Shown here in pieces: positions 484-11,734 of a stretch of 20,796 bases of DNA (position 1 is its first letter; each line of letters starts with the position of its first letter). The DNA comes from a virus. The stretch lies in IMG/VR virus record IMGVR_UViG_3300017950_001508, positions 1 to 20,796 of that record; one strand, given 5' to 3'. Position numbers and translations under genes: made by a program. The notes under the pieces are model-generated. The model did not search any database, was not told the DNA's origin, and saw only the letters and a program-made list of their open reading frames with translations.

Positions 484-1727
484 GGAAAATTGATTTTGAA
501 ATTGTTAATCCTGATTTCTTATACAAAATGGACGAACACATAACATTTTGTTTTAAAAACGAAGAACGCGGCTTCTTTTGGCACCCAGTATATAAACATT
601 GGATTATCTTTTCGATGGATCGCCTTAAAGAGGCATCTAAAATGAATGATAGATTCAGTCTTGCAAAAACATCTCCAGCACCATTTGATCCTACTCCTCT
701 TGGAGGTGTTTGGAGAGCAGGATATGCGTTGACACTTCGTGAAGGTCCGCATCACCACCTTGCTAAAAAACATAGTTTAGATTGGATTAAACGTCGAGCA
801 GGCGATTTTACAAAAATCTTTACAGATAACTTATATAAAGATCTTGACTCGATTAAAAAGGGCGTTCCATTTAAAGCATACGATGTCATAGGCAAAACAG
901 TAACAGATACCCAAGTTCAATCAATTGAGTTTCCGTGGGATGCATTGGATGTTACTGAAGATTATGTAAAAGACGGATTTCATAAGTGGATGCGTCCTGG
1001 AAATGTATTTTCAAACTTTAATCCGGACTTTGATTACGATAAGCCTGTATCAGAGACTACTGAGTTTTATAGTATGTTCTCTCGTATAGTTAACGAAGCA
1101 ATAGAATATTATCATAACAATGATAAAGATTACGATACTATGATTAATATGACTAAAAACCTCAACGACAAACAATCTGAATATAACGATAATCCTAAAC
1201 TAATGGCGTATATGTTTATTCAGTCTTTATGGACAGTGGTTATTCCTACATTTTCGTTAAGTTTATATCAGAACATTTTAATGAACTTTTGTAAATATCC
1301 AGATATTGTTAAACGTATAAAAGAAGATAGGTCTTTAGTTTCTGCATTTGCTAGAGAAAGTTTACGATTAGCACCTTTAAAGGGCGGCGTACGAGATATT
1401 GTTGACGATACAGTATTTCATGGTTATAAGTTTGATGGAGGCGGCCGCATTTTGTTATATACATATGGTGCCAATCGAGATCCAAAATATTATAAAGATC
1501 CGTTAGTATTTAGACTTGAAAGAGATAACGAACCGTTGCCGGTAACACTTGCATATGGCCCGCATCATTGTACAGGTGATTTTCTTGTTAAGCATTTTTT
1601 AGAAATTATTACAAATGCATTATTAGATAGATTTGATACGTTTGAGATTACAAGACAGCCTGAGCTATTGCCTGCTATGTTTGGAAGTACAACTGTTTAC
1701 AAAGATTTAGAAATGGTATTTTCGTGA
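480..1727 (+). CDS. Cytochrome P450 family protein
   Basis: The 415-residue length matches bacterial soluble class I P450s. The K-helix ExxR motif is E293-S-L-R296. The meander follows as ANRDPKYYKDPLVFRLER. The heme loop is AYGPHHCTG with C364 as the expected axial thiolate, although the usual phenylalanine of FGxGxHxCxG is replaced (AYGP). The I-helix region around residues 250-260 reads TVVIPTF. T257 could be the conserved threonine, but the acidic residue normally before it is absent (P256). P450s usually insert one oxygen atom using O2 and electrons from a ferredoxin/reductase pair; no redox partner is encoded here, so host electron donors would be needed. The altered oxygen-activation site leaves room for peroxide use or other chemistry (inference). 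The start overlaps the upstream stop (ATGA) and the end overlaps the next gene (GTGA). The protein has no N-terminal membrane anchor. P450 genes are rare in phages. Confidence 0.88.
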   Translation: MRKIDFEIVNPDFLYKMDEHITFCFKNEERGFFWHPVYKHWIIFSMDRLKEASKMNDRFSLAKTSPAPFDPTPLGGVWRAGYALTLREGPHHHLAKKHSLDWIKRRAGDFTKIFTDNLYKDLDSIKKGVPFKAYDVIGKTVTDTQVQSIEFPWDALDVTEDYVKDGFHKWMRPGNVFSNFNPDFDYDKPVSETTEFYSMFSRIVNEAIEYYHNNDKDYDTMINMTKNLNDKQSEYNDNPKLMAYMFIQSLWTVVIPTFSLSLYQNILMNFCKYPDIVKRIKEDRSLVSAFARESLRLAPLKGGVRDIVDDTVFHGYKFDGGGRILLYTYGANRDPKYYKDPLVFRLERDNEPLPVTLAYGPHHCTGDFLVKHFLEIITNALLDRFDTFEITRQPELLPAMFGSTTVYKDLEMVFS

Positions 1728-2239
1728 TAGAAACAAGGATTATATCTAAACCTACCTTGCAGTTATTAGAATTCATTAATGAATGTGATAGGATGAATTA
1801 CAATAATAACAATAGCCTAGAGTCTATGAAATTTAATAACACATTACGTATTGGCGGAAACTGGTTCGCCACTTTTCATAATACTAAAATTGTTGGCATA
1901 AGCGGAGTACATCCATTCCTCAACGGTATACGAGCATTATTTAGAGGATGTCAACTTTATTCAATTCCTGGCGGATTAAGTAAGAATCATATGAATTGTT
2001 GGATGTTTCGCTATCACTTGCCTATAGTAATTAATATGTACAGCAATAAGCCTATATACATAACAACTAATACCGAAACTGACCACAGCGGCAAAATGTT
2101 AAAGTTAAACAAACTTTATCACATACTTGAAAAAAAACAAATAGTAGAACATCTAGGGTGTCAAAAGGTTTTTGATACCGAACAAAATATATGGAAACTA
2201 AATATAAAAGAATATTGTAAGATAAACCCGGAGATTTAA
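1724..2239 (+). CDS. GNAT-like acyltransferase fold protein
   Basis: The gene encodes 171 residues and starts at a GTG that overlaps the P450 stop (GTGA). The layout resembles diverged GNAT N-acyltransferases of marine phages: an N-terminal helix, a strand pair GGNWFATF..KIVGISGVH (about residues 44-63), a RALFRGCQLY segment, a THTxTDHSGKM-like helix start near residue 120, and a closing IWKLN strand. A clear Q/RxxGxG/A acetyl-CoA loop is not visible, so activity and acyl donor are uncertain. In context it could transfer an acyl group activated by the adenylating enzyme two genes downstream, but that is inference. It is one codon-tight member of the + strand operon; its TAA directly abuts the next ATG. 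Confidence 0.5.
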   Translation: MIETRIISKPTLQLLEFINECDRMNYNNNNSLESMKFNNTLRIGGNWFATFHNTKIVGISGVHPFLNGIRALFRGCQLYSIPGGLSKNHMNCWMFRYHLPIVINMYSNKPIYITTNTETDHSGKMLKLNKLYHILEKKQIVEHLGCQKVFDTEQNIWKLNIKEYCKINPEI

Positions 2240-3427
2240 ATGAAGATTGCTATATTAGGTGCTGGAAGTGCAGGGGTATTAACTGCAGGCTGTTTACTTA
2301 AAGATTTTAAAAATCGTGAAATTGAGTTAGAGCTTACCCATGTATATGATCCAAGTAAGCCTATCCTCGGAGTAGGTGAGAGTACAACGTCAGAAGTAAC
2401 CTTTGCTATTGGTCAGGCATTTGATTTCATATTTGCAACAGAAGCAAAAGAACTCAACAGCACAACTAAGTACGGCACACATTACATTGATTGGAGAGAG
2501 AAAGATATTATTTTTCCTTTTCAATCAGGATATCATGCTATCCATTTTGATGCAAAAGATTTTGTTAAAATGGGCATGGAACGCTTAAAAAAATTATATA
2601 ATAGTTATACTGTATTACACGGTAACGTAGAAAGAGTATCGCAAAGTTTTACTGATTATACTAACGAATCAAGAGGCGGCGAACTAACCGTAGACGGAAA
2701 ACTGCACATATTTGATTATATTATCGATTGTCGAGGTAGACCGACAGATTTTACTGATTACAATGAATGTAACCTTGTTCTAAACTCTGCTTTGGTATAT
2801 GATGATCCAACACCATCTGATTTTGGATTCACACGTCATGTTGCTCATAAGTATGGATGGATGTTTGTTATTCCATTACAACATAGGACATCTCATGGCT
2901 TCCTGTACAACAGTGAGTTTTGTACACGTGAAGAAGCTGAAAAGGAACTTATTCGTATCACAGATGCAACAGATGCAGATACAAAAAACTTCCGTACATT
3001 TGATTTAAAACCATATTATTGTAAGAAGACAGTTGACCAACGTTTATTAAAAAATGGAAACTGTGCAGTGTTCTTTGAACCAATGAGTGCAAATTCGTTG
3101 TATATGGCTGTTAAAAACTGTCAAATACTTTCTGATTATATACGAGGCGAAATTAACGGCTCTCGAGCAAACGAGCTATGTATTTTAAACTATCGTGCAG
3201 TAGAAGATTTAATTAACTTAATCTATCATGGAGGCTCTATATACAAAAACGAATTTTGGGACTGGGCAAAGAAAACATCTGCTGAACGTATAGAAAAGAC
3301 TGATGTATTGAAACGATATGTAAAAGGGCAAAACGACGAAATGTTTAAAACTATTACTGAACGGTTCATGGGTCATCACGTTTTAAAATACGTTGACCAA
3401 GAGTTTGGATTTCATTACTTTGATTGA
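2240..3427 (+). CDS. Flavin-dependent tryptophan halogenase-like protein
   Basis: The 395 residues start at an ATG abutting the previous TAA, with GGAG six bases upstream. The FAD-binding GxGxxG is seen at the N terminus (GAGSAGVLTAG). GVGESTTSE follows, matching the GEST/GEAT signature of the PrnA family. K77 in TTKYGTHYIDW aligns with the catalytic lysine (K79 of PrnA), and W207-M-F-V-I-P212 is a variant of the WxWxIP halogenase motif with Phe for the second Trp. EPMSANSLY (E280-Y288) lies where PrnA has the PLESTG chloride/substrate loop, so the catalytic Glu and the chloride-contacting Ser-Thr appear replaced by S283, A284 and N285. The fold is therefore well supported, but halogenation is doubtful; it may be a flavin monooxygenase or oxidase, or use another acid. 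PrnA is about 540 residues, so this is a short member. Related genes are annotated in marine T4-like phages. No flavin reductase is encoded here. Confidence 0.82.
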   Translation: MKIAILGAGSAGVLTAGCLLKDFKNREIELELTHVYDPSKPILGVGESTTSEVTFAIGQAFDFIFATEAKELNSTTKYGTHYIDWREKDIIFPFQSGYHAIHFDAKDFVKMGMERLKKLYNSYTVLHGNVERVSQSFTDYTNESRGGELTVDGKLHIFDYIIDCRGRPTDFTDYNECNLVLNSALVYDDPTPSDFGFTRHVAHKYGWMFVIPLQHRTSHGFLYNSEFCTREEAEKELIRITDATDADTKNFRTFDLKPYYCKKTVDQRLLKNGNCAVFFEPMSANSLYMAVKNCQILSDYIRGEINGSRANELCILNYRAVEDLINLIYHGGSIYKNEFWDWAKKTSAERIEKTDVLKRYVKGQNDEMFKTITERFMGHHVLKYVDQEFGFHYFD

Positions 3428-4160
3428 TAAATTAGAACATATTATTGTAAATGGCATAACTATTAAAACATCGGGTACATCCGGAGTTCCAAAAGAGATA
3501 TATCAGCCCCCAAGTAAAATAGTAGCAGATGCCAAATGTGCAATCCAAGTTCAGGATATTAATGTGCATAGTTCTATATACACTTGTTTAAGTTTAGAGC
3601 GTGCTGGAGGATTGTTTGCCCAATCTATTCCAGGATTGATAGCTGGTGCAACAGTTAACTTTGATAAATTTAATCTATATAAATATACTAAAGTAGCAGA
3701 TAGATATACTCATACACATTTAACCCCAAAGCAAGCAAAGGGTGTTATGTTAACAAAGGGATTTAAAACACTTGACTTAACCGGCAAAACATTTTTAGTA
3801 GGATCTGAGCCCGTCACGTATGATATTATTGAAGGTTTTATCAATCGAGGTGCTCGAGTAATATGTATATGGGGAATGACCGAAGTTGGAGTAAATGCCA
3901 TTATGCATATATTTAATAACATAGAAGAAGTGTATGCACTTAAAGATATTACGCCTGCTAACTCTACTGTACTCGGTAATATATTTAACTGTGATTATAA
4001 GATAGACAAAGAAAATAGATTATTAGTAAAAGGTGATATATCTGTATATGGGGACAACTGGTTTAATACACAAGATCAAGTAATAGAACAAGACGGAATA
4101 TTATTCTACATTGGAAGAAACGGCACTCCAGTAGACTTTAATAATCCAAGGAAAGGATAA
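3420..4160 (+). CDS. Minimal adenylate-forming (AMP-binding) enzyme
   Basis: The ANL-superfamily core motifs are present in order, numbered from the TTG at 3420. The P-loop is TSGTSGVPK (residues 17-25, motif A3), A5 is WGMTE (151-155), A7 is NTQDQ with ribose-binding D219, and A8 is YIGR with R233. Family members convert a carboxylate to an acyl-adenylate and often then to an acyl-CoA. At about 246 residues it lacks the usual N-terminal 150 or so residues and ends straight after A8, with no C-terminal lobe and no A10 lysine. If functional it would keep ATP and carboxylate binding but not the domain-rotating second half-reaction (inference). There is no ATG. TTG at 3420 overlaps the upstream stop by 8 bases; TTGs at 3393 and 3405 are alternatives with longer overlap. 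The acid substrate is unknown; the short GNAT-like neighbour is a possible acyl acceptor enzyme. Confidence 0.78.
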   Translation: MIDKLEHIIVNGITIKTSGTSGVPKEIYQPPSKIVADAKCAIQVQDINVHSSIYTCLSLERAGGLFAQSIPGLIAGATVNFDKFNLYKYTKVADRYTHTHLTPKQAKGVMLTKGFKTLDLTGKTFLVGSEPVTYDIIEGFINRGARVICIWGMTEVGVNAIMHIFNNIEEVYALKDITPANSTVLGNIFNCDYKIDKENRLLVKGDISVYGDNWFNTQDQVIEQDGILFYIGRNGTPVDFNNPRKG

Positions 4161-4161
4161 T

Positions 4162-6237
4162 ATGAAAACATATGATGTTATAATCATGACTGAAGGCAGC
4201 GACCCGGTATTTAATGTAGCACGGGGAATCGGCGGCTATAAAATTGCATCTGCTTTACGCAATGAAGGATATAGTGTTTTTGTATTAAATAACTTTTCAC
4301 ATTGGATTAAAAACGGAATGATTAAACAAATTCTTGACAAGTTAATCGGTGATAACACACTATGGGTTGGATTTAGTTCTTCGTTGTTTATGAGAAAGAG
4401 TAACGAAGTATATACCAAACGACATACACGAGATACTAATAAAAAAAATATTCTTTGGCGCTGGCCTACTGAAGACGAAGATATTAGAAAAATGACTGAT
4501 TATATTCGATATACCAAAGGTGTAAAAACTGTATACGGCGGCAGTATGTCATATCATCGAGCCGAAGAAGTTAAAAATGAAATAGATTATTATGTAGTTG
4601 GAATGGGCGAACATACTGCATTAAATATTACTAATCACTTAAAAAATGGTACAGATCTTAACTATAATGCCAATCTCGGAACTACTCCCTATATATTTGA
4701 TTATGATCAAAAAGGAGCGTTATTTGATTTTAGAAATACAAAAGTAAACTATATTCCAGAGGACTTTTGGAGTGCGGAAGAAGCTATGGGTATCGAATTT
4801 GGCCGTGGATGCATTTTTAAATGTAAGTTTTGTGCTTATCCATTGATAGGAAAGAAAAAAGGCGATCAATCTTTTTTAAGAGATAAAGAATGTATCAAAC
4901 ACGAATTAAAACAAAACTATGAGTTATATGGCACTACAAAGTATATAATTATCGATGATACATTTAATGAGCAGACTGTTAAGCTACAAGCTATTGCAGA
5001 TGCCATAGAAGAAATTAATCTACCAGAACAACTACAGTTTTCGGCATTTATACGTATTGATCTTGTAGCAAAATGGCCAGAGCAACTAGAACTACTTAAA
5101 AAAATCAATGTGTGTTCTTGGTTTCTCGGTGTTGAATCGTTGAATTATGAGTCAGCCAAGACAATCGGAAAGGGTTGTCCTAGCGCAACAATTTTTGAAA
5201 CAATCAGAAAATCTCGAGAAGTATTTGATGGATCGTTAAGTGTTTACGGTAGCTTTATTGCTGGGTTGCCTTATGATAGTAAAGAAACAATGGATGTTTG
5301 GACTAAGGATGTTATTAAAAACAAAGATCTGTTTGATGCTTTTTCTTTTAGCCCATTAGAGCTCGGCACAGCATCTGAGCTTTCAAAAAATCCAGAAAAG
5401 TTTGGCTATACAGTATATACTGATGATGAAAAGCAAAACAAATGGCGTACTAAAGATTGGGATAGTGACGAGGCTGTTGAATACGTAAAAGTACTTACAA
5501 AAGATTTTATCGATGATATTAAAGTTTCTACCTTCTTTTTAATGTTTTATCAGTGTCTTGGATATTCATTCGAAGAACTTAGAAAAATGACATTTACTGA
5601 ATTATTTACAAGTGCCGAGCCTCGTCGTAAAGCACGGCATTTTTTAGAAAAATCTTATTATTCAAAAGTTGAAAACCTTTTAGAAATAAAGAAGCCCGAA
5701 CCTAATATAAGATATATGAAAAACTTATCGGTTAACCAAGATTTAAAATCTAAATTAAGAAAAGAGTTTTATGAAAACAAGTCACTTGCTAAAGTATTTA
5801 CTGCTTCCAACGAGCACGAAACAAAAAGCATTGATCATCTTCGTGTGATTAGACAAGACGATATGTCTAATTGTAACGTAGCAAATAGTATAGCAAATCA
5901 TGTTAGTTCTATTATTGGTTGCAAAGCTGTTCCTAGGTATTATATACAAGACGGAGATAGTTACCTATCTCCTCATCGTGATCATGGAACAATAACTGCT
6001 TTAAATATAATACTAGATGGCGACGGTCCTATAACATGGAATAGTCCTATATCCTGGAACGAAGATATCGATGTCTATTATGAAGGTGCTTTGCTTAATG
6101 TACAAGAAGAGCACAGTGTACAAACATATAATGAAAGAGTACTTTTTAAACTAGCAATTTTTGATAAAAGTTATGACGAAGTATTAGAAGCAATCAACGG
6201 CAAAGAAGGAGATTTATTTGGCATTGATTCATTATGA
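4162..6237 (+). CDS. B12-binding-type radical SAM protein fused to a C-terminal 2OG-oxygenase-like domain
   Basis: This 691-residue protein shows three parts. Residues 1-165 resemble the Rossmann-like B12-binding domain of class B radical SAM enzymes (GGYKIASALRNEGY near the start, YGGS... and VVGMGEHT later; no DxHxxG, as is common in this class). Residues 210-440 hold the radical SAM core with C217-IFK-C221-KF-C224, preceded by GIEFGRG. After a linker of about 120 residues, residues 570-680 form a double-stranded beta-helix-like oxygenase domain with H605-R-D607, a distal H651 and R659, the spacing of the Asp/Asn beta-hydroxylase-like 2OG-Fe(II) family. B12 radical SAM enzymes typically methylate or rearrange unactivated carbons; 2OG oxygenases hydroxylate. 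The fusion suggests two successive steps on one substrate (inference). The start follows the previous TAA by one base after an AAGGAAAGGA ribosome site. The substrate is unknown. Confidence 0.85.
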   Translation: MKTYDVIIMTEGSDPVFNVARGIGGYKIASALRNEGYSVFVLNNFSHWIKNGMIKQILDKLIGDNTLWVGFSSSLFMRKSNEVYTKRHTRDTNKKNILWRWPTEDEDIRKMTDYIRYTKGVKTVYGGSMSYHRAEEVKNEIDYYVVGMGEHTALNITNHLKNGTDLNYNANLGTTPYIFDYDQKGALFDFRNTKVNYIPEDFWSAEEAMGIEFGRGCIFKCKFCAYPLIGKKKGDQSFLRDKECIKHELKQNYELYGTTKYIIIDDTFNEQTVKLQAIADAIEEINLPEQLQFSAFIRIDLVAKWPEQLELLKKINVCSWFLGVESLNYESAKTIGKGCPSATIFETIRKSREVFDGSLSVYGSFIAGLPYDSKETMDVWTKDVIKNKDLFDAFSFSPLELGTASELSKNPEKFGYTVYTDDEKQNKWRTKDWDSDEAVEYVKVLTKDFIDDIKVSTFFLMFYQCLGYSFEELRKMTFTELFTSAEPRRKARHFLEKSYYSKVENLLEIKKPEPNIRYMKNLSVNQDLKSKLRKEFYENKSLAKVFTASNEHETKSIDHLRVIRQDDMSNCNVANSIANHVSSIIGCKAVPRYYIQDGDSYLSPHRDHGTITALNIILDGDGPITWNSPISWNEDIDVYYEGALLNVQEEHSVQTYNERVLFKLAIFDKSYDEVLEAINGKEGDLFGIDSL
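6206..6211 (+). promoter_or_regulatory. Ribosome binding site fixing a TTG start
   Basis: A full AAGGAG lies inside the end of the radical SAM gene, six bases before the TTG at 6218. It supports that TTG as the start of the downstream oxygenase, because no ATG lies nearby in frame. Confidence 0.7.
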
Positions 6238-6796
6238 TACAATAAACTTACCGATAGTCGAAGGTCTGTTAGAAGAATTAGACAACTTAAATTTAGAATG
6301 GTTCAAACCTTCTAATCCACACAGCGCTCAACAGATATGTTTAAATGCCGCACCAGGCTATACAGATGATTATAGCTTTGGGGCTGGTTACTTTGCAGAT
6401 AAAGGCAAGTCTGATTTCTTTATTAGACTTACACCAGAAGGAGATGTTAGAATACCAATGTCTCCAAAGTCAGTATACGACTGGGAGCTGTGTGATGTTT
6501 TTAAAGGCACATTGTTTAATCACGCCTATTGTGTATTAGAAACAAAATACACTGTCGGTAGAGTGCGTCTATTAAAATCAAAACCGTATACTTGTATGAA
6601 TTGGCATATAGATCCAATTCCTCGTATACATTATCCAATACAAACCAACGAGGCTTGTCTTATGATTATCGAAGATGAAGTATACCATTTACCAAAAGAT
6701 CAATGGACATTTGCTCATACAGATAAAGGAAATCATACTGCGTTAAATGCTAGTAATATTGATCGTATTCATTTAGTAGCAGATATATTACCATGA
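6218..6796 (+). CDS. Aspartyl/asparaginyl beta-hydroxylase-like 2OG-Fe(II) oxygenase
   Basis: This 192-residue protein has the metal facial triad H130-I-D132 and H173, plus the 2OG-binding-type R183. These sit in the family's usual surroundings: NWHIDPIPRIHYPI, then TNEACLMIIEDE, HLP, NHTALNAS and DRIHLV. Family members hydroxylate Asp/Asn or related groups using 2-oxoglutarate, O2 and Fe(II). Stand-alone copies are frequent in cyanophages and pelagiphages with unknown targets. The TTG start overlaps the previous gene by 20 bases behind a strong AAGGAG, and the stop overlaps the methyltransferase start (ATGA). The N-terminal 90 residues carry no motif I recognise. It is one of three such domains in the window, the others being the C terminus of the upstream protein and a - strand gene at 13487-14041. 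Confidence 0.82.
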   Translation: MALIHYDTINLPIVEGLLEELDNLNLEWFKPSNPHSAQQICLNAAPGYTDDYSFGAGYFADKGKSDFFIRLTPEGDVRIPMSPKSVYDWELCDVFKGTLFNHAYCVLETKYTVGRVRLLKSKPYTCMNWHIDPIPRIHYPIQTNEACLMIIEDEVYHLPKDQWTFAHTDKGNHTALNASNIDRIHLVADILP

Positions 6797-7470
6797 TATT
6801 TAAAAAACTTAATGTGTTTAATATATTTGATCAGTTTGTAACTGATTACAAAAATAAAAAAATATTAGACTTTGGAGGAAACCGAGGTAATCTAATTAGT
6901 TATAGCAACGGCAAAATCCATGAAAAAAACTATACTTGTATGGACGTAAGTAAGGATTCATTGAATGCTCTTTTAAATGAACACCCGGCTGCAAATGTAG
7001 TTTATTGGAACAGATACCATTCTATATATAATCCTGCTGGTAGTAAAACAGAAACATTTCCAAATATTGGAATATTTGATATTTCGTTTGCTAACAGTGT
7101 ATTTACTCATCATAACTTAGAAGAACTACTTTATTGTGTAGAAAACCTATGTACCATATCTACATATGTATATTTTACATATATCGATCCATCTAATCAA
7201 AAAATATTTGATATACTTCATAATACGCACAGAACAATAGATGTTTCAGAAAAACAAATGAAAAAAATACGCAGCAATAAAGTTTCGTATATTACAAATA
7301 ACGATAACATGCTATGGTCTGTATTTGATACGGTCGAACTTAAAAAGTCTATAAAAAAATATTCTAGATTTCAGTTATCTATAGAAGATGGACTAACAGA
7401 CGGATTTAACTGGATGAAAATTACAGTGTTAGATAGAAATATTATTGTACCATCTTTAATAGGATATTAA
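6793..7470 (+). CDS. Class I SAM-dependent methyltransferase
   Basis: The 225-residue protein has motif I ILDFGGNRGN (residues 24-33) after a short helix, the acidic post-II residue in CMDVSKDSLN near residue 51, and a motif IV-like FDISFANSVFTHHNLEELL near residue 97. The order and spacing are those of Rossmann-fold methyltransferases, which move a methyl from SAM to O, N, C or S. There is no N(D)PPY motif, so an adenine-N6 or cytosine-N4 DNA methylase is unlikely; a small-molecule or protein methyltransferase fits better. It starts with an ATGA overlap on the oxygenase and is followed after one base by the PP-loop gene, so it belongs to the same coupled operon. The substrate is not deducible. 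Confidence 0.78.
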   Translation: MIFKKLNVFNIFDQFVTDYKNKKILDFGGNRGNLISYSNGKIHEKNYTCMDVSKDSLNALLNEHPAANVVYWNRYHSIYNPAGSKTETFPNIGIFDISFANSVFTHHNLEELLYCVENLCTISTYVYFTYIDPSNQKIFDILHNTHRTIDVSEKQMKKIRSNKVSYITNNDNMLWSVFDTVELKKSIKKYSRFQLSIEDGLTDGFNWMKITVLDRNIIVPSLIGY

Positions 7471-7471
7471 A

Positions 7472-8170
7472 ATGATTTTTACAAAAGATGATTTTCCAGA
7501 TGGACCACCTAAGCAAGTTATATTAATGTTATCAGGCGGATTAGATTCTGCAATATTATTTTATTTAATTTGCAAACACTTTCCAAAAACTTATATTGTT
7601 CCGTTTTCAGGTGATGATGCATGTAATCCTGCAGACATACTTTGTGCTTATGATATTTTAAAATTTATGCGTAAAAGATTTCCTGATGCTAACATAGGAA
7701 AGCACGAAACATATAGATTTGACACTAATGATACTTTTTGGTTTAAAAAAGCTAAGGATCAATTTGATAACTTTACTTTTTCGTCAATAGAAGGATTATC
7801 AAAATATTTTCAGCTAATGGCGGCTCTTAAGAAAGTTAGAGAACAAAATAATATATTAACATTTGTTAATGCAGTAACAGCTAACCCACCAAATGAAGAA
7901 ATGAACCTGCACGGGTTAGAAAACGGCGCAGATCAATATAGAAATGTTTGTATTGAGCCAAGACTATCCAAAACTATATATGGAAATGTTCTGTATAAAC
8001 CGTGGATAAACACAAACAAGCGCGACATAGCAAAGATTTATAAACAAGAAAACTTAATGGAATCATTATATAAGTTAACAAAATCGTGCGTAGATCCTAC
8101 TGCTACTTATGAAAAAAGGGAATGTGGATTATGTTGGTGGTGTCGAGAAAAAAAATGGGGATTTGAATAA
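7472..8170 (+). CDS. QueC-like PP-loop ATPase (7-cyano-7-deazaguanine synthase family)
   Basis: The PP-loop SGGLDS is at residues 21-26, preceded by hydrophobic VILML. The C terminus has C206-x11-C218-GL-C221-WW-C224, matching the structural zinc site of QueC, and ends in KKWGFE. The total of 232 residues equals the QueC length. QueC uses ATP to turn 7-carboxy-7-deazaguanine and ammonia into the nitrile preQ0. QueD, QueE and FolE are not in this window, so a deazaguanine role depends on genes elsewhere or on the host. Other PP-loop ATPases of this shape make amide or nitrile bonds on adenylated acids, which would suit the operon (inference). It follows the methyltransferase by one base. It is the last gene before a late promoter, so it probably ends the tailoring operon, although no terminator is visible. 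Confidence 0.75.
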   Translation: MIFTKDDFPDGPPKQVILMLSGGLDSAILFYLICKHFPKTYIVPFSGDDACNPADILCAYDILKFMRKRFPDANIGKHETYRFDTNDTFWFKKAKDQFDNFTFSSIEGLSKYFQLMAALKKVREQNNILTFVNAVTANPPNEEMNLHGLENGADQYRNVCIEPRLSKTIYGNVLYKPWINTNKRDIAKIYKQENLMESLYKLTKSCVDPTATYEKRECGLCWWCREKKWGFE

Positions 8171-8203
8171 TAATCAAATCTATTTAATATGTTACACAAA
8201 AAA

Positions 8204-8211
8204 TATAAATA
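8204..8211 (+). promoter_or_regulatory. T4-type late promoter
   Basis: An exact TATAAATA box sits in the 70-base gap before the small membrane-protein pair. The start codon follows 29 bases after the box, with AAGGAG at 8229-8234. T4-like phages use this element with their late sigma factor, so the pair should be expressed late and separately from the enzyme operon upstream. Confidence 0.75.
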
Positions 8212-8240
8212 ATGATATATTGTAACATAAGGAGAACGAT

Positions 8241-8450
8241 ATGACTACATTAACTGCACACTGCGAAAAGGCTGACACTGGATATTTTGGACATCTTAAA
8301 ATTGGATCACACATGGTATTTTGGTCATTGGCAGTATTTATAACAAGTACAATACATGCTATCTTTCCATTTGTGCTTGAAGCATCATCTATGAATGCAG
8401 CAAAGAAATTGGCAAGTTTAGTAGACACAACATTTGAGCATCATAAATGA
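8241..8450 (+). CDS. Small DUF6356-like membrane protein, copy 1
   Basis: This 69-residue protein has one hydrophobic segment (about residues 28-47, MVFWSLAVFITSTIHAIFPF) holding the family-type IHAxFPF motif, preceded by GYFGHLK. It is then amphipathic to the end. It starts at an ATG six bases after AAGGAG and 29 bases after a late promoter. The similar order of motifs in the next gene (GYF-H, then a hydrophobic stretch, then IHAxFPF) indicates a tandem duplication. Assignment to DUF6356 is by recalled pattern. The function is unknown. Late expression and a short transmembrane protein would be compatible with a membrane role such as lysis control, but nothing proves that. The stop overlaps the next start (ATGA). 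Confidence 0.7.
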   Translation: MTTLTAHCEKADTGYFGHLKIGSHMVFWSLAVFITSTIHAIFPFVLEASSMNAAKKLASLVDTTFEHHK

Positions 8451-8707
8451 GCCTTTTTAAAAATAGCATTATAAATTTTGAGCATCTTAAAGACGTAAGG
8501 TCTGGATATTTTTTGCATATGTGGTATGCTATTAAGTTGTCATCACACTCATTACTAATTCCATTAACTGGTTTTATACATGCATTCTTTCCATTCATTT
8601 TCCCAGCGTTGCCGCATAAATTTGCATTACGTCAAGTGTCAATGGCTGAAGAGTTGTTCAAGGAATTACAAGCAGTGATTGAAGCTGAAAAAGAAGCTAA
8701 GAAATAA
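8447..8707 (+). CDS. Small DUF6356-like membrane protein, copy 2
   Basis: This 86-residue paralogue of the preceding gene carries FEHLKDVRSGYFLH, a hydrophobic stretch with SLLIPLTGFIHAFFPFIF (about residues 34-51), and a charged C-terminal helix rich in Glu and Lys. The shared IHAxFPF segment is the hallmark. ATGA coupling to copy 1 implies that both are made from the same late transcript. One membrane span, or a re-entrant pair broken by the prolines, is likely. The gene is followed within nine bases by the convergent terminator hairpin. No enzymatic motif is present. Confidence 0.7.
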   Translation: MSLFKNSIINFEHLKDVRSGYFLHMWYAIKLSSHSLLIPLTGFIHAFFPFIFPALPHKFALRQVSMAEELFKELQAVIEAEKEAKK

Positions 8708-8715
8708 CCAATTTA

Positions 8716-8751
8716 TGGGATAGAAACGGTGTCAACCTCTATCCCACTTTT
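8716..8751. terminator. Hairpin terminator between convergent operons
   Basis: TGGGATAGA (8716-8724) pairs perfectly with TCTATCCCA (8738-8746) and is followed by CTTTT on the + strand. It ends the + strand transcript and overlaps the last codons of the - strand protein gene. On the - strand the stem is followed by TAAATT, a weaker tail, so two-way action is possible but less sure. Confidence 0.7.
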
Positions 8752-11734
8752 GGATATAGTTTATTTGTATACCGCTAGTACGCAAGCCAGATTTTATTTT
8801 ACTTTTACGCTTTGGAAATACTGTTTGAGTAAACTGTGTTGCATCTTGGTATATAACCTTTGGTGCTTCGTCAGTTTCTATACTAGGATAGTCAGTCCAG
8901 TTAGCCTCGGTTGCAGTTGTTGATTCAGATCCATAATAAAAGTTATCAGTTGTTTGTCCTGGCATGTTTGAAAGATATGTTTTAATATCTGCATATGTCC
9001 AGTTTCTATTAAACTGCACTAAGGTAGAAATAAATCCAGCTGCACATGGACACGCTGCACTTGTACCACTAAATCCTGTATCCTCGGGTACTCCTGAACC
9101 ACTACCGCTGTTGGCAGTAAATCCAGAATATACAGCAGGGTACCTGCCTTCTGGAGTATAGCTTTTATTTGCTGATAATATTCCATCTGCAGGGGCATAC
9201 AAGTCTATACCATTGCCTCTGTCGCTATATCCAACTTTGCGTTCTTTTGCACCAACAGCATGATCATCATCCAATGCACCAATGTTGATTGTTTTATATG
9301 TAACTTCACCATTGCTAATAAGCGGTCCGTTGTTGTATTCAGGGTCCTGCGTACTTCCGTTACTTACAACATATCCTGATACACCTGCCAGACTTGGATC
9401 GTCTTGTGCTGGTGTGTTTCCATCTTGGAATATGCTTCTAATAGTAGCAAGTGATGGTTTGCTAATAACTGGAGCAATGTATGTGTTGTGTAGTGCGTAT
9501 CCTAGCGGATTGTTTGCTAGAATGCCTGCTTGAGTACGCATTAAATCACTCCATTCAGGAGCAAGACTTCCGCCATCCCATAATTCTGTGTATTCAAACA
9601 TTGCAAAGTTCAGTAGGAACAAATATTCTTTTGCGGCTACTTCAAATGCATCCCCATCAGTCTTCCAAGTGTCTCCGCCGTATCCCGAACTATCCCACAT
9701 GCCTGCATCGTATGCTTCTTCCATAGCCGCATACAGTGGACCACTTGCCCAGTCTGCACTAATATAAGAATACAACTTTAATGACACAGCATCTAAGCCA
9801 TGCATATGAAGTGTATGGAATACGTGTTCAATAACTTCTTGTGCATCGTTGTCACCGTCTCCGTAACCATCGCCGGTTGAATTCAAATACCAAACCATAT
9901 CGTTTGCTACATGGCTATCAAATAGTGGTGATAGATTCCAAAAAGTAATACCATCATCTGTTAAGAAGTTTGTGCTATAGTCTCCACCGGCGCCTCTTGC
10001 TACTCGTTGTAGTGTTGGTCCTTGGGCTGCATGATAAGTTCCTGCGTCACCACTGAGTGTTTTAATAACAGTTCTTTGTGCAGCTTCATTAATACCTGCG
10101 GCATTTTTGTCTAAGAAAAGTTCAAACATACGTCCAACTTTTTCTAACCATGCATCTGGCACTGCTACCTGCCCGCCAACGCTACCGGCTCCTACAATAC
10201 GTACACCATTAACTGTAAGTTCACGCTTAAAGAAATCGCTACCGAGACCGTCACTTAAATCATGTTTGCCACCTTGTTGCGGAAATCCACGTCTATTGGT
10301 TGTACCAGTGGTTTCTACGCTAAATTCAAAATAACTGCTTTCTTCGATAGTGTCATCGCTGTTGGCACTGATATAGTTGTCAAAATCAGGATGCCCCCAG
10401 TTGGTTTGTTTTTGGTTACTGTTGCCAGCAGCACACACAAATATTACTCCGCTGTCGATAAGTTCGTCTAATGCAGTTGTAAGTGAGTTGGTTTTCATTT
10501 CACTTTTCCAGCGACCGCCATCTCCTTGTGATCCCATATGTGAGATAAATGTAGGTTCTGCACCTGTTCCTGCATATGTTACAGGAGCATCTTCTCTAAA
10601 ATGATACCATCCTGGGTTTGAACCTTTGCTTGCACGATATCCCCAACTGTTTGAACTTACAGTAGGGTCTTGTGTGCCGTATGCAGGATTTACTGGTTTT
10701 GTATTGTGGAATATTTTTTGTAAATCAAAGCCTGGTTCGATGTCAGTACTATTAGTGCCATATAAGTTAAGTGCCCATTTGTTAGCGTTGTATGCCCAGC
10801 CCTGTGTTCTACCGTATGTAAGCGCCATACAGGGCGTACAGTGCTGTCCTACAGTGCTTGGTATTGTATTTGTGCCGTTGCAATATGCTCTTGTGTATCC
10901 GCTTGTAATAAACGATACGATACCTGCACTAGGAAACTTTGCATTGAATACACTACTTCTATTGCCTGTGCTTGTCCACCAACCTCTTGCAAAACTTTCT
11001 ACAGGTACAATAGTACCATCCCAACGTGTTATAAGTCTATTATCTGGATCTGCATTAAAATAATCTGGATCTAAATAATAAGGTGCATCTAAACATAAAT
11101 CTAGTACATCGCAACTTCCGTTACCTGGTAGTAGATTACCACCTATGTATCCATTTGGTTTTTCGCCTTCTGTGTCCCTATTGAACTCAGGGTGACCGAT
11201 CCATCCAGCGCCATCATCAGCTACAATGACATCAACATGCTTGCCGTCTCCCCATTGAGGTATTTTACTTGTTTTTACAACGTTATCTGCGTCACCGCCT
11301 TCTATCCAAGGATCGACTAGTGTGCTACCTCTTAATGTTCCCCAGTTGGTTCTATTGATATCTGTTGAATCAGGTGTGCCGGGCAATGTGTTTGAAGTTT
11401 CCATTTCTTTGTAAACTTTAACTGTATTTTTGTATCTATTAAAGTTTTTTGGAGCACTTGCATAAAGTTCGTCCGGCGGCGCCTTATATGTTTCAGGATA
11501 TTTCGAGTAATCGATATTGATAAACTTTATACGTGGATCTGCTTTTAGTGCAGTTGCTTCTGCATCTGTTAAGGAAAAACTTCCTCTTGTAAGACTATGT
11601 TCTTTTTCATCTGTGCATGTGCATACTCTATCTGGAATAGTTGCAATCCCATTAGTTGCTTCGCAAAGTTGATTGTGTATTTCGATATATTGTTCTGCTG
11701 TATTCGTTCCTAACGAATAATATTGTTCACTCAT
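8732..11734 (-). CDS. Subtilisin-family (S8) serine peptidase-like phage protein with a large insertion
   Basis: The 1000-residue protein carries the subtilase triad in order. D173 is in VIVADDGAG with a following HPEF, H298 is in GQHCTP (the usual HGT has become HCT), and S892 is in GFSGTSAACP. The oxyanion Asn is N438 in VCAAGNSNQ. Between N438 and S892 there are about 450 residues instead of about 65. This stretch includes an alpha-rich segment near residues 540-770 with a His cluster, E636-H637-x2-H640-x2-H643-x-H645, that looks metal-binding. There is no signal peptide and the N terminus begins MSEQYYSLG. It is the last gene of the late structural block, 11 bases after the tail fibre gene, so a virion or tail-associated protease is the likely role (inference). 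It is preceded by AAGGG near the start and ends inside the shared terminator hairpin. Cysteines are numerous for a phage structural protein. Confidence 0.85.
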   Translation of the reverse strand: MSEQYYSLGTNTAEQYIEIHNQLCEATNGIATIPDRVCTCTDEKEHSLTRGSFSLTDAEATALKADPRIKFINIDYSKYPETYKAPPDELYASAPKNFNRYKNTVKVYKEMETSNTLPGTPDSTDINRTNWGTLRGSTLVDPWIEGGDADNVVKTSKIPQWGDGKHVDVIVADDGAGWIGHPEFNRDTEGEKPNGYIGGNLLPGNGSCDVLDLCLDAPYYLDPDYFNADPDNRLITRWDGTIVPVESFARGWWTSTGNRSSVFNAKFPSAGIVSFITSGYTRAYCNGTNTIPSTVGQHCTPCMALTYGRTQGWAYNANKWALNLYGTNSTDIEPGFDLQKIFHNTKPVNPAYGTQDPTVSSNSWGYRASKGSNPGWYHFREDAPVTYAGTGAEPTFISHMGSQGDGGRWKSEMKTNSLTTALDELIDSGVIFVCAAGNSNQKQTNWGHPDFDNYISANSDDTIEESSYFEFSVETTGTTNRRGFPQQGGKHDLSDGLGSDFFKRELTVNGVRIVGAGSVGGQVAVPDAWLEKVGRMFELFLDKNAAGINEAAQRTVIKTLSGDAGTYHAAQGPTLQRVARGAGGDYSTNFLTDDGITFWNLSPLFDSHVANDMVWYLNSTGDGYGDGDNDAQEVIEHVFHTLHMHGLDAVSLKLYSYISADWASGPLYAAMEEAYDAGMWDSSGYGGDTWKTDGDAFEVAAKEYLFLLNFAMFEYTELWDGGSLAPEWSDLMRTQAGILANNPLGYALHNTYIAPVISKPSLATIRSIFQDGNTPAQDDPSLAGVSGYVVSNGSTQDPEYNNGPLISNGEVTYKTINIGALDDDHAVGAKERKVGYSDRGNGIDLYAPADGILSANKSYTPEGRYPAVYSGFTANSGSGSGVPEDTGFSGTSAACPCAAGFISTLVQFNRNWTYADIKTYLSNMPGQTTDNFYYGSESTTATEANWTDYPSIETDEAPKVIYQDATQFTQTVFPKRKSKIKSGLRTSGIQINYIQKWDRG

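Follow-up and report, generated by a model that had tools for sequence, protein, structure and literature searches.

Acyl-CoA synthetases, the adenylation domains of nonribosomal peptide synthetases, and luciferases together form the ANL superfamily. ANL enzymes are two-domain machines in which the C-terminal lobe swings between two half-reactions, and in the full-length enzymes the A10 lysine of this lobe is important for adenylation. The positively charged residues that contact CoA in acyl-CoA ligases are found mainly in the C-terminal domain, and fatty acyl-AMP ligases shield the acyl-AMP from CoA (PMC8460268). Here, we describe a marine-virus gene encoding 246–255 residues of an ANL (PF00501) protein, referred to as mini-ANL, which apparently represents an undescribed miniature form without the usual CoA-handling lobe. 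The gene occupies positions 3420 (or 3393)–4160 of the analyzed stretch of 20,796 nucleotides (the window), which was taken from IMG/VR record IMGVR_UViG_3300017950_001508.

The open frame for mini-ANL runs from 3393 to 4160 on the plus strand and has candidate TTG starts at 3393, 3405, and 3420. Because no ATG precedes motif A3, the start is uncertain by about nine residues; an ATG-started relative of 255 residues (L003) has a similar stretch ahead of A3. Using numbering from the TTG at 3393, A3 corresponds to TSGTSGVPK (residues 26–34), A5 to WGMTE (residues 160–164), A7 to WFNTQD (W223, T226, and D228), and A8 to G241–R242. All four motifs thus lie in the frame 3420–4160, within about 246 residues, as the original prediction, made from the sequence alone, had stated. 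The frame stops 13 residues past R242; mini-ANL contains neither an A10 lobe nor an A10 lysine, and a profile search of the window record did not find AMP-binding_C (PF13193), which bears out the predicted absence of the A10 lobe. PF00501 matched the window protein with E = 5e-11 and 42.4 bits (gathering score, 29.9), and a bacterial member of the family (L090) scored 41.4 bits. The match to the window protein was confined to profile positions 170–378 of 384, meaning that the N-terminal third is missing, again as predicted. The adjoining genes are intact, as had also been claimed: the halogenase-like gene upstream ends at 3427, overlapping the start of mini-ANL, and the radical SAM gene downstream begins at 4162.

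The fold prediction that had been proposed as a check gave a confident model. The AlphaFold2 model, obtained with ten family members (pLDDT 88.2, pTM 0.87), is an ANL N-terminal core, with the best VIA-align score to 5ie2 (Z 22.6, rmsd 2.9 over 244 residues) and Z scores of about 20 to many ANL chains for model residues 2–255. The PF00501 score, motifs A3, A5, A7, and A8, and the predicted N-domain fold place mini-ANL among ANL N-terminal cores; lacking both the N-terminal region before A3 and the A10 lobe, it does not belong to the complete two-domain enzymes.

Consecutive scans of IMG/VR yielded 3, 12, and 198 related loci; the last set was reduced to its best 80. A scan of bacterial genomes yielded 49 loci. 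From these, a set of 104 members was assembled, comprising 56 viral sequences that remained after dereplication at about 93% identity and all 48 bacterial sequences without dereplication, with one contig-edge frame left out. The search of viral metagenomes thus retrieved same-length homologues of the window protein, at 41–98% identity. Lengths range from 223 to 283 residues in all viral open frames examined and in the 104-member set, in which 9–55 residues (median 21) precede the A3 serine and 1–18 residues (median 2) follow the A8 arginine. No full-length member was found among the relatives, and none extends more than 18 residues beyond A8. Invariant in all 104 members are G28, S60, F93, H107, G137, W160, G161, M162, E164, G166, I170, G195, L210, W223, T226, D228, and R242. 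The A3 residues S27 and K34 are kept in 99% and 94% of members, respectively, and position 122 is a lysine in 91% and otherwise mostly an arginine; these percentages lean toward the SAR11 members because these are many and alike.

The loss of both the N-terminal region and the C-terminal lobe could mean that mini-ANL is a degraded piece or a pseudogene derived from a complete ligase. Such an origin is exceedingly improbable, given that length and end point stay constant across the 104 members, that selection is purifying, and that no remnants flank the mini-ANL genes. The dN/dS ratio was 0.058–0.239 in the 15 pairs for which it could be computed (dS was saturated in two pairs) and 0.087 for the window protein and its nearest relative. 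Neither of the signs of decay named in the original prediction, a frameshift relative to full-length homologues or drift typical of a pseudogene, was thus seen, and a pseudogene or frameshift was ruled out. Two relatives (L003 and L007) have no halogenase gene and carry mini-ANL directly after the GNAT gene, which shows that the short form is independent of the overlap between the halogenase-like and mini-ANL genes of the window. The conclusion that mini-ANL is a stable compact form and not a decayed fragment, as first suggested for the window gene, is strongly supported.

Among the bacterial carriers are uncultured Pelagibacteraceae (SAR11), Methylophilaceae, SAR116, Chromatiaceae, and other Gammaproteobacteria, many of them represented by metagenome-assembled genomes (MAGs). 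A quick tree of 86 members has its viral and bacterial rows intermingled, with eight label changes, at least four of which are forced by well-supported branches. Three bacterial MAG contigs (L122, L123, and L132) carry the viral-type combination of GNAT, DUF6356, and mini-ANL genes and group with viral members; they may be contigs of viral origin that binning placed in MAGs. Searches of sequenced phages with tblastn gave no match for the window mini-ANL, the L014 member, the L014 GNAT protein, or the radical SAM protein. No PHROG family matches mini-ANL, and none of the Pfam, PHROG, and NCBIfam libraries searched contains an entry dedicated to it. The record of one locus (L064) encodes a second, longer AMP-binding protein (2459–3886; 475 residues; PF00501, E = 3.8e-8) about 4 kb from its mini-ANL gene.

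In the window, mini-ANL lies in a run of plus-strand genes. The run includes genes for a cytochrome P450-like protein (480–1727; PF00067, E = 1e-12; 12 of 56 loci), the GNAT-fold protein discussed later, the flavin-dependent halogenase-like protein (2240–3427; PF04820, E = 4.5e-31, phrog_2928; 10 of 56), and, after mini-ANL, a radical SAM protein of the B12-binding type with an extra C-terminal domain (4162–6237; PF04055 and PF02310; 12 of 56). These are followed by an oxygenase-like protein of the Asp/Arg hydroxylase type (6218–6796; PF05118, E = 1.5e-5; 13 of 56), a methyltransferase-like protein (6793–7470; PF08242, E = 2.3e-6, just under the cut-off; 10 of 56), and a QueC-like PP-loop protein (7472–8170; PF06508, E = 2.2e-8). 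Apart from mini-ANL and the GNAT gene, each of the genes just listed occurs at 10–13 of the 56 loci, largely within the clade of the window, and the gene set of this clade looks like a virus-borne biosynthetic cassette. The literature searched contained nothing on a pelagiphage halogenase with a radical SAM protein. The extra domain accounts for about 190 of the 691 residues of the window's radical SAM protein; its L003 counterpart has 503 residues (5729–7240), and a separate L003 gene for 167 residues (7856–8359) resembles the extra domain. On the minus strand, positions 8732–11,734 encode a protein of 1000 residues with a subtilisin-like GTSAACP motif, adjoining apparent phage structural genes.

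The original prediction named the GNAT-like and the QueC-like neighbor as possible recipients of an acyl-adenylate. The QueC-like protein is an unlikely acceptor, being present at 10 of 56 loci, and that part of the proposal is weakly supported at best. The commonest viral partner is the GNAT-fold protein (1724–2239, plus strand), which a profile search detected at 48 of the 56 viral loci and at 3 of the 49 bacterial ones. By sequence, its profile gave only a weak match to solved structures (3t9y, E = 0.017), so that fold prediction was needed; the AlphaFold2 model (pLDDT 92.5) has a GNAT fold, with a VIA Z score of 12.7 to 8gxj. Neither Pfam nor PHROG assigns this family above threshold. None of 42 GNAT-partner sequences contains the acetyl-CoA phosphate loop, Q/RxxGxG/A, although its absence is no proof that the donor is something other than CoA. 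Counted by eye over the 48 viral loci, the GNAT gene is directly downstream of mini-ANL at 15 and directly upstream at 7; it lies upstream across approximately 140–600 bp, a gap usually holding a DUF6356 gene, at 15, about 1.1 kb upstream, as across the halogenase gene of the window, at 9, and 2–3 kb upstream at 2. At two loci (L036, 8732–9985; L050, 8733–9986), mini-ANL is directly followed by a gene for a 417-residue fusion in which a further N-terminal domain precedes the GNAT-fold partner. Hand-over to the GNAT-like neighbor is plausible in viruses, considering its frequency and its fold, and this loop-less GNAT-fold protein is the leading candidate for an acceptor there. It is not obligatory, since the GNAT partner was missing from all 21 whole genomes of bacterial carriers in searches whose controls were positive (5 of 5); this rules out GNAT as a universal partner and hand-over to it as the general function.

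The usual partner of mini-ANL in bacteria is the DUF6356 family (PF19883), present at 36 of 49 bacterial loci and at 31 of 56 viral loci. At 33 of the 49 bacterial loci, the DUF6356 gene is directly upstream of mini-ANL, mostly overlapping it. Several bacterial carrier genomes lack DUF6356, which rules it out as a universal partner. The window encodes two small proteins of the DUF6356 type in tandem (8241–8450, above the cut-off in the genome search, and 8447–8707, PF19883, 33 bits, above the cut-off; both on the plus strand), and this pair ends the plus-strand gene run, just ahead of the opposite-strand genes. Inspection of gene neighborhoods by eye showed DUF6356 repeatedly beside an Lrp/AsnC-type regulator-like gene in Alphaproteobacteria (L146–L149, L151, L153, and L155), and, in SAR11 (L090 and L105), an SDR-like gene upstream of DUF6356 and mini-ANL, next to a photolyase/cryptochrome-like gene. 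In the literature searched, DUF6356 is mentioned by a single paper.

Computation shows the predicted fold, the conservation of the nucleotide motifs, the uniform end point, the selection on the gene, and its association with other genes. For the function of mini-ANL, we infer adenylation chemistry, independence from CoA, and hand-over of the product. Our preferred reading, held tentatively and at somewhat less than even probability, is that this miniature ANL branch forms an acyl- or aminoacyl-adenylate, or keeps one bound, with no part for CoA, and that the viral members most likely pass the activated group to the GNAT partner. Mini-ANL would keep only the part of an ANL enzyme that grips ATP/AMP and the carboxylate, stopping at the A8 hinge, and this core would make or hold the adenylate without involvement of CoA. 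In viruses, the activated group would go to the GNAT-fold partner lacking the acetyl-CoA phosphate loop, and in many bacteria, DUF6356 would be the associated partner in place of GNAT. Because CoA contacts reside mainly in the C-terminal domain, mini-ANL is unlikely to form CoA thioesters in the usual way. The importance of the A10 lysine in full-length enzymes implies that an isolated core may work slowly or not at all; candidates for a substitute are K122 of the core or a partner protein. A broader version, in which a CoA-free two-part acylation system has been spread by viruses, with the half-enzyme passing its adenylate to the loop-less GNAT and DUF6356 taking the matching role in bacteria such as SAR11, is possible but doubtful.

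Several other functions would accommodate the same core. Mini-ANL could be a binding protein without catalytic activity, sensing or sequestering AMP, ATP, or ready-made acyl-adenylate and regulating its partners; the A10 lobe is missing in every member and yet the nucleotide-binding residues are invariant, and many bacterial members have no GNAT partner. We consider this unlikely, since the A3 loop with its lysine and A5 are kept as in catalysts and the viral copies are placed in enzyme-rich cassettes. The recurrent association with GNAT in viruses and DUF6356 in bacteria suggests that a partner matters, which makes it quite unlikely that mini-ANL is a self-sufficient enzyme with an open, lobe-less active site where an amine or alcohol would attack the acyl-adenylate directly. 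Amide-bond synthetases of the ANL superfamily do use such direct attack by the acceptor, and some bacterial members are beside neither GNAT nor DUF6356, most of their genomes lacking DUF6356 altogether. The close upstream placement of DUF6356 in bacteria would also fit a split enzyme, in which DUF6356, GNAT, or an ANL C-lobe of the host supplies the lysine or lobe for an ordinary ANL reaction, possibly with CoA. This is decidedly improbable, as several carriers have no DUF6356, bacterial carriers have no GNAT, and a search of 18 viral records found no PF13193 in 17 of them; on the latter result, a C-lobe supplied in trans by the virus was rejected.

The literature searched contained nothing about AMP-binding enzymes of viruses, nor did it describe any naturally occurring core-only ANL family, although its journal coverage was partial, so that this is no proof of absence. 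A large natural family that is always without the C-lobe allows testing of the core alone and of its completion by a separate protein. If the two-part, CoA-free reading is true, an N-terminal core by itself is enough for an ANL enzyme to function in nature. The association with mini-ANL also offers an initial clue to what DUF6356 and the viral GNAT-fold family do in abundant ocean bacteria and their viruses.

Among known systems, the top Foldseek match of the mini-ANL model was MenE, the o-succinylbenzoate-CoA ligase, from Staphylococcus aureus (3ipl; E = 1e-13, 22% identity), and the best sequence matches of the family profile among solved structures were feruloyl-CoA synthetase and MenE. All NCBIfam equivalog matches were far under their cut-offs, the MenE model (TIGR01923) scoring 24.3 bits against a cut-off of 330.15. 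MenE (3ipl, 5bur, and 5c5h) shares motifs A3 to A8 with mini-ANL but has a full N-terminal region and an A10 lobe and produces CoA thioesters. The core of fatty acyl-AMP ligases (3kxw and 3lnv) matches the mini-ANL model with Z scores of about 21; unlike mini-ANL, these are complete two-domain enzymes, which load a carrier protein with the acyl group and exclude CoA by different means. For the GNAT partner, the Foldseek matches include FeeM (2g0b), a GNAT-fold N-acyl amino acid synthase of a class that takes acyl-ACP instead of acetyl-CoA (PMC11631085). Like mini-ANL, a short ANL-type protein from Dyadobacter (4gs5, 350 residues) and the 362-residue PRK07824 model have little sequence before A3, and residues 2–246 of the mini-ANL model align with residues 16–249 of 4gs5. 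Both continue for about 100 residues after the aligned part, whereas the miniature family stops at the hinge.
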